Assembly: GCA_947258865.1 (NCBI GenBank)
Contig: CAMYKC010000053.1
Location: 2,525-39,551 of the forward strand
DNA from: an uncultured Lysobacterales bacterium
Lineage (GTDB): Bacteria; Pseudomonadota; Gammaproteobacteria; Xanthomonadales; SZUA-36
Reading direction: 5' to 3'
DNA length: 37,027 nt
The first letter of the stretch is position 1; every line of letters begins with the position of its first letter. A program made the position numbers and the translations under genes. The notes beneath the pieces are model-generated. The model worked only from the letters and a program-made list of their open reading frames with translations. It made no database searches and had not been told where the DNA came from. Shown here piece after piece: positions 353-29,586 of this stretch.

Positions 353-2228
353 ATGAGCAAATTACCCCATCTGATCACGCTGTGCTGCAGCCTGGCGCTT
401 CTGGCTGCATGCGAGCAAGCAGCCAAAACGGCACCCGCCGCAAACGGCGCCGCGGAACAATCTGCCCCGCAGGCGCCCACAGCCGAAGAGGCTGCCGCCT
501 TCGTCGCGCGGGCGGAGGAAAAACTTGCGCAGCTGGGACAGGAAAGCGAGCGCATGGCCTGGGTTTTGTCAAACTTCATTACATTCGATACGGAATTGCT
601 GGCGGCGCGCGCTTCAGAGCAATACACCGCGGCCCAGGTGGAGATTGCCAGCCAGGCGGCACGGTTCAATGAAGTGCAGGGCCTGGACTACGATACGCAT
701 CGCAAGCTGCACATGTTGAAGAGCGGAATCATCATTCCGGCTCCGCTGGACGCCGCAAAAACGGCGGAGCAGTCGGAGATTGGCGCTAGGATGAGCGGCA
801 TGTACGGGAAGGGGGCTTATTGCCCTGATGAGGGAGACTGCCTCGCACTGGGCGAGCTGGAGGACATCATCGCGGAATCGCGCAAGCCTGATGAGTTGCT
901 GGAAGCCTGGGAAGGCTGGCGCACGGTGTCGCTGCCGATGAAGGACCTGTACGCCCGCCAGGTGGAACTGGCCAACGAGGGGGCGGCAGAACTCGGTTTC
1001 GACGACCTGGGTACGATGTGGCGCTCGGCTTACGACATGGACCCGGCGGAATTCCCGGGCGAGCTGGACACGCTTTGGAACCAGGTAGGCCCGCTTTATG
1101 AAGCCCTGCATTGCCATGTGCGAGCGAAACTGGGCGAGCAGTACGGCACGGACATCGTGCCTGCCGATGGACCCATTCCCGCCCACCTGCTGGGCAACAT
1201 GTGGGCGCAGAGCTGGGAAAATATCTATGACCTGGTCGCACCGCCAGAAACCGCTGCTGGTTACGACCTGACCCAAATCTTGCAGGGTAAGGGCTACGAT
1301 GCACGGAGCATGGTCGAGACCGGTGAAGCTTTTTTCAGCTCACTGGGTTTTGAGCAACTGCCTGAAACCTTCTGGGAGCGTTCCCTGTTCGTGAAACCTG
1401 CCGACCGTGATGTCGTATGCCATGCGTCCGCCTGGGATATCGATGAACAGGACGATCTGCGCATCAAGATGTGCATTGATGTGAACGCCGAAGATTTCAA
1501 AACCATCCACCACGAACTGGGCCACAACTACTATCAAAGGGCCTACAAAGAACAAAGTTTCCTTTACCGCGGCAGCGCAAACGACGGATTCCACGAGGCG
1601 GTGGGCGACACGCTCTCGCTGTCGATTACGCCCGAATACCTGCAGAAACTGGGCCTGCTGGAGGAGGTTCCTGATGCCTCCGGCGACCTCGGCTTATTGA
1701 TGCAGCAGGCGCTGGAGAAAATTGCCTTCCTGCCGTTTGGGCTGATGGTGGACCAGTGGCGCTGGAAAGTTTTTGCCGGTGAAGTGGGGCCTGACGGCTA
1801 TAACGACCTGTGGTGGCAGTTGCGCGAGAAATACCAGGGCGTCGCAGCACCCGGCGAGCGGCCGGACGACGCATTCGATCCGGGGGCCAAGTACCACGTT
1901 CCCGGCAATACGCCCTATACACGCTATTTCCTGGCCCATATTCTGCAGTTCCAGTTCCACCGGGATTCTGCAGTTCCAGTTCCACCGGGCGCTGTGTGAA
2001 ATTGCCGGCAATGAAGGTCCGGTTCATCGCTGCTCGATTTATGCAAGCAAAGAGGCCGGTGAACGATTGAACGCGATGCTCGAAATGGGCAGAAGCCGGC
2101 CCTGGCCGGAAGCGCTGGAAGCAATGACGGGATCAGAGCAAATGGATGCGACGGCGATCCTGGATTACTTTGCGCCGTTACAGGCATGGCTGGATGAGCA
2201 GAACGCGGGCCGCCAGTGCGGCTGGTAA
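353..2228 (+). pseudogene. M2-family (ACE-like) peptidyl-dipeptidase lipoprotein, frameshifted near the C-terminus
   Basis: Peptidase family M2 members are zinc dipeptidyl carboxypeptidases related to angiotensin-converting enzyme. Residues 1-20 form a lipoprotein signal ending LLAAC, so the product should be lipid-anchored at C20. The zinc site is HELGH at 387-391, with a third ligand E415 in the HEAVGD motif. The family signature [24 protein letters not shown] is present. Directly after it an exact 25-bp tandem duplication shifts the frame, and the ORF stops at 1999 (548 aa). The family C-terminus ([25 protein letters not shown] through [10 protein letters not shown]) continues in the next frame to 2228. 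Removing one repeat copy restores a continuous ORF of about 616 aa. The shortened product keeps the active site but loses the last roughly 75 residues. A sequencing or assembly error is possible. The start has a weak GGAAAA ribosome site. Confidence 0.88.
1940..1989. repeat. Exact 25-bp tandem duplication inside the M2 peptidase gene
   Basis: Two adjacent identical copies of a 25-bp unit beginning ATTCTGCAGTTCCAGTTCC lie at 1940-1964 and 1965-1989. Because 25 is not a multiple of three, the duplication causes the frameshift described for the peptidase. The unit also contains a short internal repeat (CAGTTC CAGTTC), which could promote slipped-strand events. Loss of one copy would restore the reading frame exactly. 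Confidence 0.95.
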
Positions 2229-3481: not shown

Positions 3482-4123
3482 TCACTTGGCAAAAGAGTCC
3501 ATGTCCGAAATGATTTTAGACGCATCATGCGGGGCGGGAAAGACGCCGTGCAGGCGCCCGTCCGGACCCATCAGCAGAATACTGGCGGAGTGGTCCACGG
3601 AATACTGCGCATCACCGGCCTCATGATCTTCAATGCGGTATGCAATTCCAAGCTGCATCGTCAGGGGCTGCAGTTGCTGGTGGCTGCCGGTGACGCCAAT
3701 AAATGCCGGATCGAAATACGCAACATATTGCTTCAGTTTTTCGGGCGTATCCCGCTCGGGATCGATCGACACGAAAAGGACCTGGTGCGCCAACGGCAAG
3801 CCGCCCGATTTTTCGACCAGTGCGCTGTGCACCATTTGCAGGTCATAAAGCGTGCCCGGGCACACGTCCGGGCAGTGGGTAAAGCCGAAAAAAAGCAAAG
3901 ACCATCTGCCACGCAGATTTTCAAGAGAAAAAAGCTGTCCATCCTGGTCAACCAGGTTGAAATCGGCAATCACCCTGGGTTCGGGAAGCATGATCAACGA
4001 AGCCGCCGGGGCCTGCTGATTATCCTGTACGAGTTTCCAGAGCGACACACCAGCCGTGGCACTGATGAGAGCAACGATGACCAGGGCGATCACCATGCGG
4101 AATGGCGGAAATTCGAAATTCAT
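3482..4123 (-). CDS. SCO1/SenC-family copper protein
   Basis: SCO proteins are membrane-anchored thioredoxin-fold copper chaperones that deliver Cu to the CuA site of cytochrome c oxidase, or act in redox and copper homeostasis. The 213-aa protein has an N-terminal membrane anchor (about residues 10-30), a periplasmic domain, the copper-binding CPDVC motif with C84 and C88 (THCPDVCPGTL), and the conserved histidine H178 (YSVDHSASI). VSIDPERDTPEKL is also a family signature. It is the first gene of a two-gene minus-strand unit with psd. No oxidase genes are in the window, so the exact client is unknown. The start ATG 4123 is divergent from prmB. Confidence 0.92.
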   Translation of the reverse strand: MNFEFPPFRMVIALVIVALISATAGVSLWKLVQDNQQAPAASLIMLPEPRVIADFNLVDQDGQLFSLENLRGRWSLLFFGFTHCPDVCPGTLYDLQMVHSALVEKSGGLPLAHQVLFVSIDPERDTPEKLKQYVAYFDPAFIGVTGSHQQLQPLTMQLGIAYRIEDHEAGDAQYSVDHSASILLMGPDGRLHGVFPAPHDASKIISDMDSFAK

Positions 4124-4179
4124 GGGTCACGCAACAATCAGCTCTTCACAGGCTGGATTATACTTCGACATTCATGATC

Positions 4180-5112
4180 ATGGATGGCAAAAAACAGATG
4201 ACGATCGCGGCATGCATCGATGAGGTTGCGGCTCAATTGGCCGGAGCCGGGCTGTACTTCGGCCACGGCACGGACAATGCCCGTGATGAGGCGGCCTGGC
4301 TCGTTCTGCATGTGCTCGGTGAATCCCTGGATGGGAGTTTCTCGGACTGGGGGCGGCCGGTCGATGAGGACGCCCGGGCCGGGATCAGGCGCCTGGTGGG
4401 CGCCCGCTGCAAGAGCGGGGAACCGTTGGCTTACCTGACCGGGTTCACCTATTTCGCCGGCCTGAAATTCGAGGTGAGCCGCGGTGTCCTGGTTCCCCGT
4501 TCCCCGATTTCCGAGCTCATCCTGGACCGCTTTCAGCCGTGGCTACGGCCGGAAAAGGTGGAGCGGGTACTGGATATGTGCACCGGCAGCGGATGCATCG
4601 CCATTGCAACCGCGCTCAATTTGCCTGACGCACGGATCGACGCGGTGGATATCAGCGCGGAGGCGCTGGAGATTGCGCGGCGCAACGCCAGGCACCACGG
4701 GGTCTCCCAACGGGTGCATCTTTTTGAATCGGATCTGTTCCAATCGCTCCCCGCATGCCGGTATGATCTGATCGTGGCGAATCCACCCTATGTCCCGGCC
4801 GGTGACCTTAAAGAACTGCCGAAGGAATACCGCTGCGAGCCCGGTATCGGGTTGGTTTCGGGTGAAGATGGCCTGGATGCCGTTCTGACGATCATGGTGG
4901 ACGCGCCTGGCTATCTGCGCGAGGATGGGATTCTCGTTTGCGAAGTAGGCGAGAGTGAGCGCAGGCTGGCCGCTGTCTTGCCGCGAGTGCCATTCTTGTG
5001 GCTTGAATTCGAACGCGGCGGGTCAGGGGTTTTCGTTTTAACACGAGATCAGCTCGAGGAAGCCAGGCCTGATGTGGTCACACTGATCGGGGAAAGAGAA
5101 TATGTCGCATAA
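4180..5112 (+). CDS. prmB: Ribosomal protein L3 N5-glutamine methyltransferase
   Basis: PrmB transfers a methyl group from S-adenosylmethionine to a glutamine of ribosomal protein L3. It is told from its paralogue PrmC by [10 protein letters not shown], where PrmC has VPRPETE. The NPPY catalytic motif is present ([13 protein letters not shown]), as is the SAM-binding motif [12 protein letters not shown]. The ORF track starts at 4102, but that extension would overlap the divergent SCO1 gene. ATG 4180 gives 310 aa, the size of E. coli PrmB; ATG 4174 and 4198 are alternatives. A TATACT hexamer at 4159-4164 could be a -10 element, which would leave a very short leader. Its end overlaps aroC by 11 nt, so the two are translationally coupled. 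Confidence 0.93.
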
Positions 5113-6163
5113 CATTTTCGGACACGTGTTCCGGATAAGCACCTTCGGCGAAAGCCATGGCCCCGCAATCGGCTGCATAATCGACGGCTGTCCGCCGGGG
5201 CTGGAAATTGACGCGGACGAGATTCGGCTGGATCTGCAGCGTCGCGCGACCGGCAAAACCCGCCACACGTCGCAGCGCCGCGAGAAAGATGACGTGCAGA
5301 TTCTTTCCGGCGTTTTCGAAGGCAAGACGACTGGCACGCCCATCGCTTTGCTGATCGAGAACACCGATGCGCGTTCGCGCGATTACGAGAACATCAAGCG
5401 ACAGTTCCGGCCCGGCCATGCGGATTACACGTACTGGAAAAAATACGGCTTTCGTGATTACCGGGGCGGTGGGCGCTCATCGGCGCGTGAAACGACGATG
5501 CGCGTTGCGGCTGGCGTGCTTGCGAAAAAGTGGCTGAAACTCAACCATTCGATTGAAATTCAGGGCTGGCTGGCGCAACTCGGCCCGATCCGGACGGATG
5601 AAGTCATGGATTGGGATTCCATTGAACGGAACCCGTTCTTTTGCCCGGATCCGGCGAAGGTCACGGAGCTCGAAAAATACATGGATGCCCTCAGAAAATC
5701 AGGCGATTCGGTCGGTGCGCGCGTCAATGTAATCGCTCGACATGTTCCGGCCGGGCTGGGTGCGCCCATCTATGGCAAACTCGATGCCGACCTGGCCAGC
5801 GCAATGATGAGCATTAACGCCGCCAAGGGCGTTGAAATCGGGGCGGGATTTGATAGCGTGGCGCAGAAGGGCACCGAACACCGCGATGAAATGACGCAGC
5901 GGGGATTTCTGAGTAATCACGCGGGCGGCGTCCTGGGCGGCATATCCAGCGGCCAGGACGTCATCGTCAGCACGGCTTTCAAGCCGACGTCCAGCCTGAG
6001 GATCCCCTGTCAGGGCCTGGATATCGATGGTAACGAGGTTGAGATCGTGACCAAGGGACGCCATGATCCCTGTGTCGGCATTCGGGCTACACCGATCGTC
6101 GAGGCCATGATGGCGCTTGTGCTGATGGATCACATTTTGCTTCACCGGGCGCAAAATGGATAA
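5102..6163 (+). CDS. aroC: Chorismate synthase
   Basis: AroC catalyses the last step of the shikimate pathway, converting 5-enolpyruvylshikimate-3-phosphate to chorismate with reduced FMN. The 353-aa product carries the three family signatures: GESHGPAIG near the N-terminus, [18 protein letters not shown] around residue 125, and [15 protein letters not shown] near the C-terminus. Length is normal (E. coli 361 aa). It overlaps prmB by 11 nt. Its product feeds the tryptophan genes (trpF, trpB, trpA) and pheA in this same window; aroA, which makes its substrate, lies 21 kb downstream and appears damaged. Confidence 0.97.
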
Positions 6164-25353: not shown

Positions 25354-25448
25354 GCAAATGAACCGTGGTCGCTAAAGCGAATCAGTTTAGACTTGCTAAC
25401 TTCGCTATGCCAGTCCCGCGGCCAGCCGCGGCGTTCGGGGAGCAGGCA

Positions 25449-26420
25449 GTGAAGCCGTCCACCCGCCGCTTGCTCCTTCTGATACCACTTGGTTTTTTTC
25501 TGATGCTGCTGGTCTTGTACCTGGCTGTGGACAAGTGGCTGGAGTCAGCGGGAGGGCGGCATGCTCTGGAACGAGCGATCAGCGATCGGATCGGGATGGA
25601 CGTGAAGCTGCAGGGCGATTTCAACATCATGCTCCTCCCCGCGATTGGCGTGTCCGGAACAAACCTCGAGATAAGCGCTTTTTCTGCAGGCGAACCGGTT
25701 GCGCGTGCAGGAAGATATGAAATCGTGGTCGCATTGGGACCACTGATTGACAAGCGGGTGCGGGTCGACAATTTCGTACTTGAATCACTGCAGTTGACCG
25801 GGCCGGGTGAAGGTACCGGTCAGTTAGGGATAGAAAGGGTCGAGTTCCGGGAATTCGAGAAAGACAAGCCCACGCCATTCAGTGTGACAACCACCGAACT
25901 GGGAAACATCGAGGGTGAATTCCGCTGGATGGCCGGAGACTCGGTCCTGGCTACGGATTTTGAGTGGCGGATCGAGGGGGCCGGGGTTCTGAACTTACGA
26001 TCATCGACATCACTGGTGAATTATTCCGGCTCCCTGGCAGCCTCTTACCTTGCGCCGGGATCGGAACAAGTGATCAATGCCTCAACGAACTACGAATACC
26101 GGCCCGACAAAATCACACTGACCGAACTCGGCCTGGAGTCTGTGGGGCAGGAAGCAGGTGGATCGGGCTGTCTCTGGATGGGGGGATTGCCGTCATTGAA
26201 TCTGAACCTGGTTGCGGATTTCCTGGACCTGGACGAACTGCGCACTGTGGCGCCCGGAAGCGGGGCGGGAGTGGGCGAGTTGCCGCTGGAAGTCCGGATT
26301 CGATTGACCGCACAGGAAGTGCGGACCAGCGGGGTGATCGCTCGCGAGGTTGCTTTCAGATTGGGTGGGGAACCGTCCTGTGAGGTCATGGAAAGCCCAG
26401 CCGCCGATCGGGTGCAATAG
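25449..26420 (+). CDS. Short AsmA-like membrane-anchored protein
   Basis: AsmA-family proteins are anchored in the inner membrane and span the periplasm; some carry phospholipids to the outer membrane. GTG 25449, with GGAG six bases upstream, gives 323 aa starting MKPSTRRLLLLIPLGFF; the track start (GTG 25365) adds 28 unlikely residues. Residues about 8-26 are the anchor, followed by the typical AsmA N-terminal pattern RHALERAISDRIGMDVKLQGDFNIMLLPAIGVSGTNLEI and a beta-rich domain. The protein is about half the length of E. coli AsmA. I found no continuation in another frame after the stop, so it is probably a naturally short member. Confidence 0.75.
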   Translation: MKPSTRRLLLLIPLGFFLMLLVLYLAVDKWLESAGGRHALERAISDRIGMDVKLQGDFNIMLLPAIGVSGTNLEISAFSAGEPVARAGRYEIVVALGPLIDKRVRVDNFVLESLQLTGPGEGTGQLGIERVEFREFEKDKPTPFSVTTTELGNIEGEFRWMAGDSVLATDFEWRIEGAGVLNLRSSTSLVNYSGSLAASYLAPGSEQVINASTNYEYRPDKITLTELGLESVGQEAGGSGCLWMGGLPSLNLNLVADFLDLDELRTVAPGSGAGVGELPLEVRIRLTAQEVRTSGVIAREVAFRLGGEPSCEVMESPAADRVQ

Positions 26421-26494
26421 GGCGGTATGCGTCCCGAGGCGAAAACTATACAATACCGGCTGGGTCCAGCATCACGCAATCGGGCAGGCGCGCA

Positions 26495-27601
26495 TTGAGT
26501 AAATCACACAAGGACACGGACGATCTGGAAGCGGTCCGGGACGAGATCGACGGCCTCGATGAACAGATACAAAAGCTGATCAGCGAACGGGCACGGCTGG
26601 CTTTTCGCGTGAGAGAAAGCAAGAGTGCTTCGCAGGATGCGGTCGAGTTATATCGTCCCGAGCGGGAAGCCCAGGTTCTCAGGTCCGTACTGGAAAGGAA
26701 CCAGGGCCCTTTGAGTGACCAGGAGATGCTACGGCTGTTCCGCGAAATCATGTCGGCCTGCCTGGCGCAACAGGAGCCCCTGAAGGTGGCCTACCTCGGG
26801 CCGGAGGGGACGTTTACACAGCAAGCGGTCCACCGTCACTTCGGCCATTCCGTGCATACGCTCAGCCTGCCCGCCATCGATGATGTGTTCGAACAGGTCC
26901 AGGCCGGCGATGCAGACTTCGGCGTGGTTCCCGTTGAGAACTCTACCCAGGGAATCGTCAGTCATACGCTGGACATGTTCCTGCTTTCCGATCTCAAAAT
27001 CTGCGGAGAGATCGAACTGCGCGTCCACCAGAATCTGCTTACCCAGGCCAAGCGCCTGGATCAGATAGAGCGGATCTATTCGCACGAACAATCGCTTTCC
27101 CAGTGCAAGATGTGGCTGCGCGCTCATCTGCCGGGAGTGGAGCTGATTTCGGTGGGAAGCAACAGCGAAGCCGCGAGGCGTGTGCGCAGCACACCCGAAG
27201 CAGCAGCCATCGCGGGCCGCTCGGCCGCGGAAGTGTACGGATTGCCGGTACTGTGCGCGGATATCGAGGACCACCCGGATAATACGACCCGTTTCCTGGT
27301 CATAGGCCGGCAGATTTTTGCACCCTCAGGAGACGACAAGACGACGCTGCTGCTGTCTGGCCACGAAGGTCCCGGTTTACTTCACAGTCTGCTGGAGCCG
27401 TTCCAGGTTCATGGTCTGAACATGACACGGATCGAATCGCGGCCATCGCGGCTTGGGAAATGGGCATACGTGTTTTTCGTCGATGTTGAAGGGCATGCAC
27501 AAGACCCGCAATTGGCAGCCGCTTTAAAGGACCTGGAGAAGGTCAGCAAGTTATCCCGTATTCTCGGTTCTTATCCAAGGGCCGTCCTCACGCCGCCATG
27601 A
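26495..27601 (+). CDS. pheA: Bifunctional chorismate mutase / prephenate dehydratase (P-protein)
   Basis: PheA turns chorismate to prephenate and then to phenylpyruvate for phenylalanine synthesis. The 368-aa protein has an AroQ-type chorismate mutase domain (about 10-95, LEAVRDEIDGLDEQIQKLISERARLA), the dehydratase domain (about 97-275) with YLGPEGTFTQQAV and the catalytic DNTTRFLVIG, and a C-terminal ACT domain (about 283-360) with the phenylalanine-sensing ESRPSRLGKWAYVFFVDVEG. TTG 26495 is the only plausible start; no ATG or GTG is in frame nearby. A TATACAAT sequence 41 bp upstream could hold a -10 element. It overlaps aroA as ATGA. The usual serC upstream and hisC/tyrA downstream are missing. 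Confidence 0.94.
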   Translation: MSKSHKDTDDLEAVRDEIDGLDEQIQKLISERARLAFRVRESKSASQDAVELYRPEREAQVLRSVLERNQGPLSDQEMLRLFREIMSACLAQQEPLKVAYLGPEGTFTQQAVHRHFGHSVHTLSLPAIDDVFEQVQAGDADFGVVPVENSTQGIVSHTLDMFLLSDLKICGEIELRVHQNLLTQAKRLDQIERIYSHEQSLSQCKMWLRAHLPGVELISVGSNSEAARRVRSTPEAAAIAGRSAAEVYGLPVLCADIEDHPDNTTRFLVIGRQIFAPSGDDKTTLLLSGHEGPGLLHSLLEPFQVHGLNMTRIESRPSRLGKWAYVFFVDVEGHAQDPQLAAALKDLEKVSKLSRILGSYPRAVLTPP

Positions 27602-28828
27602 TCCTGGAGACGCAGCCGGCCGGCTCCCCGCTGCGGGGAGAGCTGACGCCGCCGGGTGACAAATCAATATCCCATCGCGCCCTGATTTTCAGCTGCCTGG
27701 CCAGCGGGCAGTCGCGCATAGAGGGATTGCTGGAGAGCGAAGATGTTCGGGCGACCGCGAACGCCTGCCGGCAACTGGGAATGAAACTGCGCGAAGAAGA
27801 TGGCTTGCTGGTGCTTGACGGCGTGGGCGAAGCGGGTCTGTCCGCGCCGCAAGCTCCACTCGATATGGGGAATTCCGGAACCGCCATGCGGCTGCTCGCG
27901 GGCGTGTTGGCCGCCCAGCCGTTCGCAACTGAACTGACCGGAGACGAATCACTCAGCCGGCGCCCCATGATGCGGATTGTTCAGCCGCTTTCGATGATGG
28001 GCGCCCGGATAGAAACAGCGGAAGGCGGTACTCCGCCATTGAGAATCACGGGCAACCCGGAATTGAAAGGGATCGAATACCACTCGCCGATCGCCAGCGC
28101 ACAGGTCAAGTCCTGCTTGCTCCTGGCCGGGCTCTATGCCGCGGGCCGCACCGCGGTTCTGGAGCCGCTCAAGAGCCGGGACCATACAGAGAAAATGTTG
28201 CCCGCATTCGGTGTTCAACTACACGGCGAATGCGGTGTACTGGGGGGAAGTAAGTTGACCGGAACTACGGTCAGGGTACCTGCCGATATTTCGTCCGCGG
28301 CATTTTTCATGGTGGCCGGATGGAGTCATCCATGTGATGCAGGCGATGGGAGCCGATTTGTCGATCCACGACCGCCGGTACTATGGAGAAGAAGCCGTTG
28401 GTGATCTCCGAATCCGCCACGCAGGCCCGTTGAATGGGATCGACATTCCCGAAAATCTGGTGCCTTCGCTTATCGACGAGTTGCCCGTTATCCTGGCGCT
28501 GGCAGCGACCTCCAGTGGAACCACGCGGCTCAGGGGCGCGGCGGAGCTGCGGGTCAAGGAAAGCGACCGACTGGCCGTGATGGCGCGCGGCCTGGGGGCG
28601 CTGGGTGTGAAGCTTAAAGAGTATGATGACGGCATGGATGTGCGCGGCGGCTCGATCGGTGGCGGAACGGTCGATGGCGCCGGAGATCATCGCTGCGCCA
28701 TGAGTTTCGCCATCCTGGGGCAGGGCGCTGATTCTCCGCTGCGGGTTTCAGGAGCCGAGAATATTGACACGTCCTATCCTGGATTTGCGGATGATCTGAC
28801 GCGTGTCGGTGGGAATATTGCTGCGTGA
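27598..28828 (+). pseudogene. aroA: 3-phosphoshikimate 1-carboxyvinyltransferase, apparently broken by a deletion and frameshift
   Basis: AroA makes 5-enolpyruvylshikimate-3-phosphate, the substrate of AroC. The first frame (27598-28404) encodes PGDKSISHRAL, MGNSGTAMRLL, SLSRRPMMRI, SAQVKSCLLLAGLY and SRDHTEKML up to DISSAAFFMVAG near 28320, then junk. The family sequence resumes in the next frame with GVIHVMQAMGADL and goes on through IDELPVILALAATS and RGAAELRVKESDRL to the stop at 28828. Between the halves about 19-20 residues are missing, including the conserved VGxNPxR segment. The frame shift implies a net loss of 2 mod 3 bases, so about 59 nt. Restored, the protein would be near the family length (about 429 aa). 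Since aroC, trp genes and pheA look intact, a sequence or assembly error is a serious alternative to real loss. Confidence 0.88.
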
Positions 28829-28893: not shown

Positions 28894-29586
28894 ATGTCAG
28901 ATGAGCATCACAACATACCCGTCATCACCATTGACGGTCCGGGTGGATCCGGCAAAGGCACCGTCGCGATGCGGCTGGCGGAAAGGCTGGGTTGGCACTT
29001 CCTGGACAGCGGGGCCCTGTACCGGCTGGTCGCCGTTGCCGCCATCGACCGCGGCATCAGTCCGAAAGAGGAGGAAGCACTGGGGGTTTTGGCATCAAGC
29101 CTCGATGTGAATTTTGGGATATCCGGCGACGGGATGGTCATTCTGCTGGACGGCAATTACATCACTGGCCGCCTGAGGTCTGAAGAGGTCAGTGTCTTCA
29201 GTTCGAAAATCGCCACTTTTTCGCTTGTCCGCTCAGCCCTGGTCAAGCGCCAGCGGGCATTCCGCAAGGCCCCGGGCCTGGTAGCCGACGGCCGTGATAT
29301 GGGTACCGTGATTTTTCCGGACGCCGTGTTGAAGGTTTTTCTCACCGCTAATGCTGAGGCACGTGCTAAAAGACGCTATAAGCAGTTGAAAGAAAAAGGA
29401 GAAAGTGTTAATCTCTCGCGCCTTTTCCGGGAGATCAAAAAGCGCGACGAGCGGGATAGCTCCAGGGCAATTGCGCCACTGAAACCTGCGGACGATGCGC
29501 ATGTTATTGATTCAACGGATTTGAGTATCGACGAGGTGTTGCAGATCATTCATAAATTACTTGATGAATCTGACGTATCGCTTTGA
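28894..29586 (+). CDS. cmk: Cytidylate kinase
   Basis: Cmk phosphorylates CMP and dCMP with ATP. The 230-aa protein has the P-loop ITIDGPGGSGKGTVAMRLAERLGWHFLDSGALYR at the N-terminus, LVADGRDMGTVIFPDA as the substrate/NMP-binding signature, and the lid/C-terminal RLFREIKKRDERDSSRAIAPLKPADDAHVIDST typical of bacterial Cmk. ATG 28894 follows GGAG by 8 nt. It sits between aroA and rpsA as in most gammaproteobacteria. The 65-bp gap to aroA contains only a small palindrome (CGGGCATGGCCCG). Confidence 0.96.
   Translation: MSDEHHNIPVITIDGPGGSGKGTVAMRLAERLGWHFLDSGALYRLVAVAAIDRGISPKEEEALGVLASSLDVNFGISGDGMVILLDGNYITGRLRSEEVSVFSSKIATFSLVRSALVKRQRAFRKAPGLVADGRDMGTVIFPDAVLKVFLTANAEARAKRRYKQLKEKGESVNLSRLFREIKKRDERDSSRAIAPLKPADDAHVIDSTDLSIDEVLQIIHKLLDESDVSL

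Follow-up and report, generated by a model that had tools for sequence, protein, structure and literature searches.

A 59-nt gap splits aroA in a draft Lysobacterales genome and is probably an assembly artefact

AroA, the 3-phosphoshikimate 1-carboxyvinyltransferase or EPSP synthase (PF00275, TIGR01356), is commonly encoded in the gene order pheA-aroA-cmk-rpsA. We analyzed a 37,027-nt stretch of a draft genome from an uncultured Lysobacterales bacterium (the window), in which this order is kept, as it is in relatives, and in which two aroA parts match the two ends of the family in order. The window, however, has no single full open frame for AroA: 20 central residues are gone and the frame is changed. 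This internal deletion with its frame change is confirmed by the analysis described below, and as a finding it is ordinary.

The second system to which the locus can be compared is technical. Errors of joining and gap filling occur in draft metagenome assemblies, and the genome studied here, a draft of 320 contigs, shows what resembles them: genes that are otherwise well kept have lost short segments, contain an overlap repeated directly, or carry patches of unusual composition. It differs from such known cases in that the error is deduced from the consensus sequence and not shown directly.

Structure and conservation of the broken aroA gene

The whole broken gene occupies positions 27598-28828 of the forward strand, between intact pheA and intact cmk on the same strand. 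The pheA gene (chorismate mutase/prephenate dehydratase; 26495..27601) encodes CM_2, PDT, and ACT domains and overlaps the start of aroA by 4 nt at its 3' end; cmk (cytidylate kinase, PF02224) follows at 28894..29586. From 27598, the first open frame corresponds to AroA as far as DISSAAFFMVA, the last codon of which ends at 28317. This N-terminal part comprises 240 codons in frame (27598..28317), matches positions 4-246 of the PF00275 profile with 239 bits, and is 73-79% identical to its nearest relatives. Behind the junction, the same frame continues as a tail unrelated to the family (28318..28404) and stops at 28404. AroA sequence restarts in frame 2 at 28319, with DGVIHVMQAMGADL, and continues to the normal stop at 28828; this C-terminal part (28319..28828) matches positions 274-417 of PF00275 with 106 bits and positions 263-414 of TIGR01356. 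Scored separately with TIGR01356, the two parts reached 237.9 and 144 bits, and an intact relative reached 419. The cut-off is 287.25 bits, and the window aroA yields no continuous protein above it.

At the junction (28317..28319), base 28318 alone separates the codons of the two parts. In the orthologue alignment, 20 residues lie between the same flanking residues in 26/27 intact orthologues and 19 residues in 1/27. Since 20 residues are expected and one base is left, the deletion amounts to 59 nt. A sequence-only reading of the window had proposed an internal deletion of approximately 59 nt with a frameshift, and the alignment to the 27 orthologues showed that both place and size were exact. 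Furthermore, when 11 relatives with intact aroA were aligned to the window, all of them split at the junction. The same reading had described the missing segment as carrying a conserved VGxNPxR motif. The segment is indeed absent, and a pattern search for it found 0 places in the genome, but the motif was misnamed: it is VGLNxTR, and mostly VGLNETR in the closest relatives.

Several origins of the gap were rejected. Orthologues that lack the segment yet remain in frame, which the sequence-only reading had named as evidence against a deletion, were not seen: the stretch was present in 27/27 compared orthologues, and this rules out a family-wide variant. A chimeric join of distant regions is ruled out as well, with synteny and identity continuing on both sides. 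Folding z-scores of the missing stretch were near zero in two relatives, which speaks against a hairpin as the cause.

The conservation of the two halves was assessed at sites that are the same in at least 7/8 other sequences. The window aroA is changed at 1/150 of these sites in the N-terminal part and at 3/98 in the C-terminal part, while intact relatives have 3-15 and 3-7 changes, respectively, at the same sites. Beside the lesion, neither half contains further stops or an excess of changes. An old pseudogene is therefore ruled out, the changes in both halves being no more than those in intact relatives. Because both halves are normally conserved, we conclude that the break is either very recent or not real.

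aroA in the rest of the genome and in related genomes

The genome assembly comprises 3.77 Mb and is approximately 90% complete and 3% contaminated; among named genomes, its closest relatives are drafts under the labels Lysobacterales, Xanthomonadales, and Chromatiales. A full-genome search of this approximately 90%-complete assembly revealed no second aroA, and the sole other match to the EPSP_synthase family, located on contig 52, is MurA according to NCBIfam. A DNA probe spanning the junction gave a meaningful E-value in the genome only for the downstream part of aroA. Open frames for aroB, aroK, and aroC were found. The proposal of a second aroA in the sequence-only reading found no counterpart in the approximately 90%-complete assembly, and its proposal that the cell takes up aromatic compounds is not needed, the other tested pathway genes being intact.

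Of 121 genomes of the order searched at the protein level, 119 gave an aroA match; nearly all relatives had a single aroA, and in this search the split copies other than that of the window lie across contigs. Among three additional cases examined with Pfam, two (G009 and G036) had a frame-broken aroA, showing that broken aroA genes also occur in other assemblies. In G036, a two-contig assembly, aroA is spread over several frames; in G009 it lies in two frames, and a second gene of the EPSP_synthase family is also split. In two other genomes (G013 and G043), contigs break within aroA near the same place, at residues 241-252 and 206-240, respectively, which may be coincidence or the mark of a region that is hard to assemble. 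A literature search for split EPSP synthases gave nothing useful.

Further broken genes in the window and on other contigs

The aroA contig carries a second lesion. An exact 25-nt tandem duplication (1940..1989, forward strand) shifts the frame of an angiotensin-converting-enzyme-like peptidase of the M2 family (353 to about 2225). Seven intact relative sequences read through this site in one frame. The duplication, like the gap in aroA, had been noticed in the sequence-only reading. Among the comparable genes of the window, which do not include positions 25366-26422, no further convincing split gene was found. The AsmA-like gene at 25366-26422 has no relative of more than 45% identity at the syntenic place, and its neighbours are well conserved.

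For a broader comparison, coding frames were scanned in the window together with 13 further stretches of the genome (229 kb) and in 14 stretches of relatives (239 kb). A site was flagged if the frame changed directly within a gene and the upstream stop had no start codon close to it. This filter was set after the two lesions of the window were known, and the scan covered approximately 6% of the genome. It flagged five gene-breaking sites in the 229 kb, window included, versus none in the 239 kb of relatives (binomial p of about 0.03, with small counts that make this comparison weak on its own). The genome thus has more gene-breaking sites than related genomes in this small sample, and the sequence-only reading was right to regard two gene-breaking indels in 37 kb as suspicious.

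In addition to the aroA and peptidase lesions, the flagged sites comprise three on contigs 52 and 60. On contig 60 (stretch L155), a sodium:solute symporter gene (3664-5185) has an internal deletion with a frame change near position 4585. One and the same Pfam profile is matched by its two parts, each read in a different frame. Compared with four relatives, the gene lacks exactly 65 nt, and at the join the 9-nt sequence ATTGCTGCC is compatible with both sides. The other two genes are broken by short patches of odd GC content. The HrpA helicase gene on contig 52 (stretch L160, 107-3936) is interrupted near 840-920; its parts correspond to E. coli HrpA through residue 243 and again from residue 288 onward, and the segment in between has 27% GC versus 57% in the flanks. 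A beta-galactosidase gene (lacZ) on contig 60 (L155, 572-3663) is interrupted near 2490-2640; its parts match the E. coli enzyme up to about residue 619 and then from about residue 758, and the stretch between them has 71% GC versus 58% in the gene. Some beta-galactosidases are naturally made as two pieces, and lacZ is therefore the least certain of the sites.

Origin of the aroA gap

We consider the 59-nt gap in aroA to be an assembly artefact, with a probability of roughly 0.78. An assembly error is favoured because three more genes, spread over two other contigs, carry broadly similar damage, and the scan flagged no such site in the relatives. A wrong assembly had been one of the options of the sequence-only reading, the interpretation of which is thus partly supported. 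The single clean lesion in aroA also argues for an artefact, as does the presence of aroB, aroK, aroC, and pheA without a second aroA. The lesions with their sizes, the intact sequence beside them, and the excess over relatives in the scanned parts are directly observed, and from these we infer that joining or gap filling caused the lesions. Two true stretches of aroA would have been fused directly, and the short piece that separates them in the real gene would have dropped out; joining errors of this sort could also have left an undetected 25-nt overlap twice in the M2 peptidase and removed 65 nt from the symporter, and the short spots in hrpA and lacZ may have been filled with sequence of foreign composition. 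Faulty joining or filling between contigs is the simplest explanation because each lesion, whether lost bases, an overlap present twice, or a patch of foreign composition, stands alone in a well-kept gene. The 9-nt join sequence of the symporter, however, is also expected from natural slippage.

That sequence and the 25-nt tandem duplication are compatible with replication slippage, and both aroA halves are still constrained, as they would be after a fresh mutation. It is nevertheless unlikely that the 59 nt were truly lost, very recently, from the sampled population or from a single strain, the cells of which would be aromatic auxotrophs or dependent on neighbours. Slippage could give rise to deletions and to the duplication, but not to the patches of odd composition in hrpA and lacZ; moreover, with five or more conserved genes broken in 229 kb, many would be broken genome-wide, and no other decay was seen. 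Two separate polypeptides assembling into a working split enzyme would gain something from the GTG at 28334, which opens the second frame behind a GGAG at 28322-28325, and from the N-terminal part lying entirely in one frame. Yet a stretch that every compared orthologue has (20 residues, or 19 in one) is entirely lacking, no relative has this arrangement, and on other contigs three genes with no relation to aroA are broken too; we regard a split enzyme as hardly credible. No better placed is an intact second aroA in the tenth of the genome that the assembly lacks, for which the completeness of only about 90% leaves room: the window copy, which would then be dispensable, lies in the conserved pheA-aroA-cmk context under constraint that is not relaxed, and a single aroA is the rule in nearly all relatives.

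It is very improbable that the EPSP synthase step was naturally lost or split while the other tested pathway genes were kept; if this were so, the organism would have to obtain a late shikimate intermediate, or aromatic compounds, from its neighbours. If the gap is an assembly artefact, the organism itself most probably carries a single intact aroA in the usual pheA-aroA-cmk context. The lesion then matters as a warning only: gene-presence or auxotrophy calls would wrongly report aroA as missing, and other genes with short gaps in this genome carry the same risk of false absence. Such damage, which the usual completeness and contamination figures (here 90% and 3%) miss, can be detected at little cost by scanning a genome for frame changes in comparison with its relatives.
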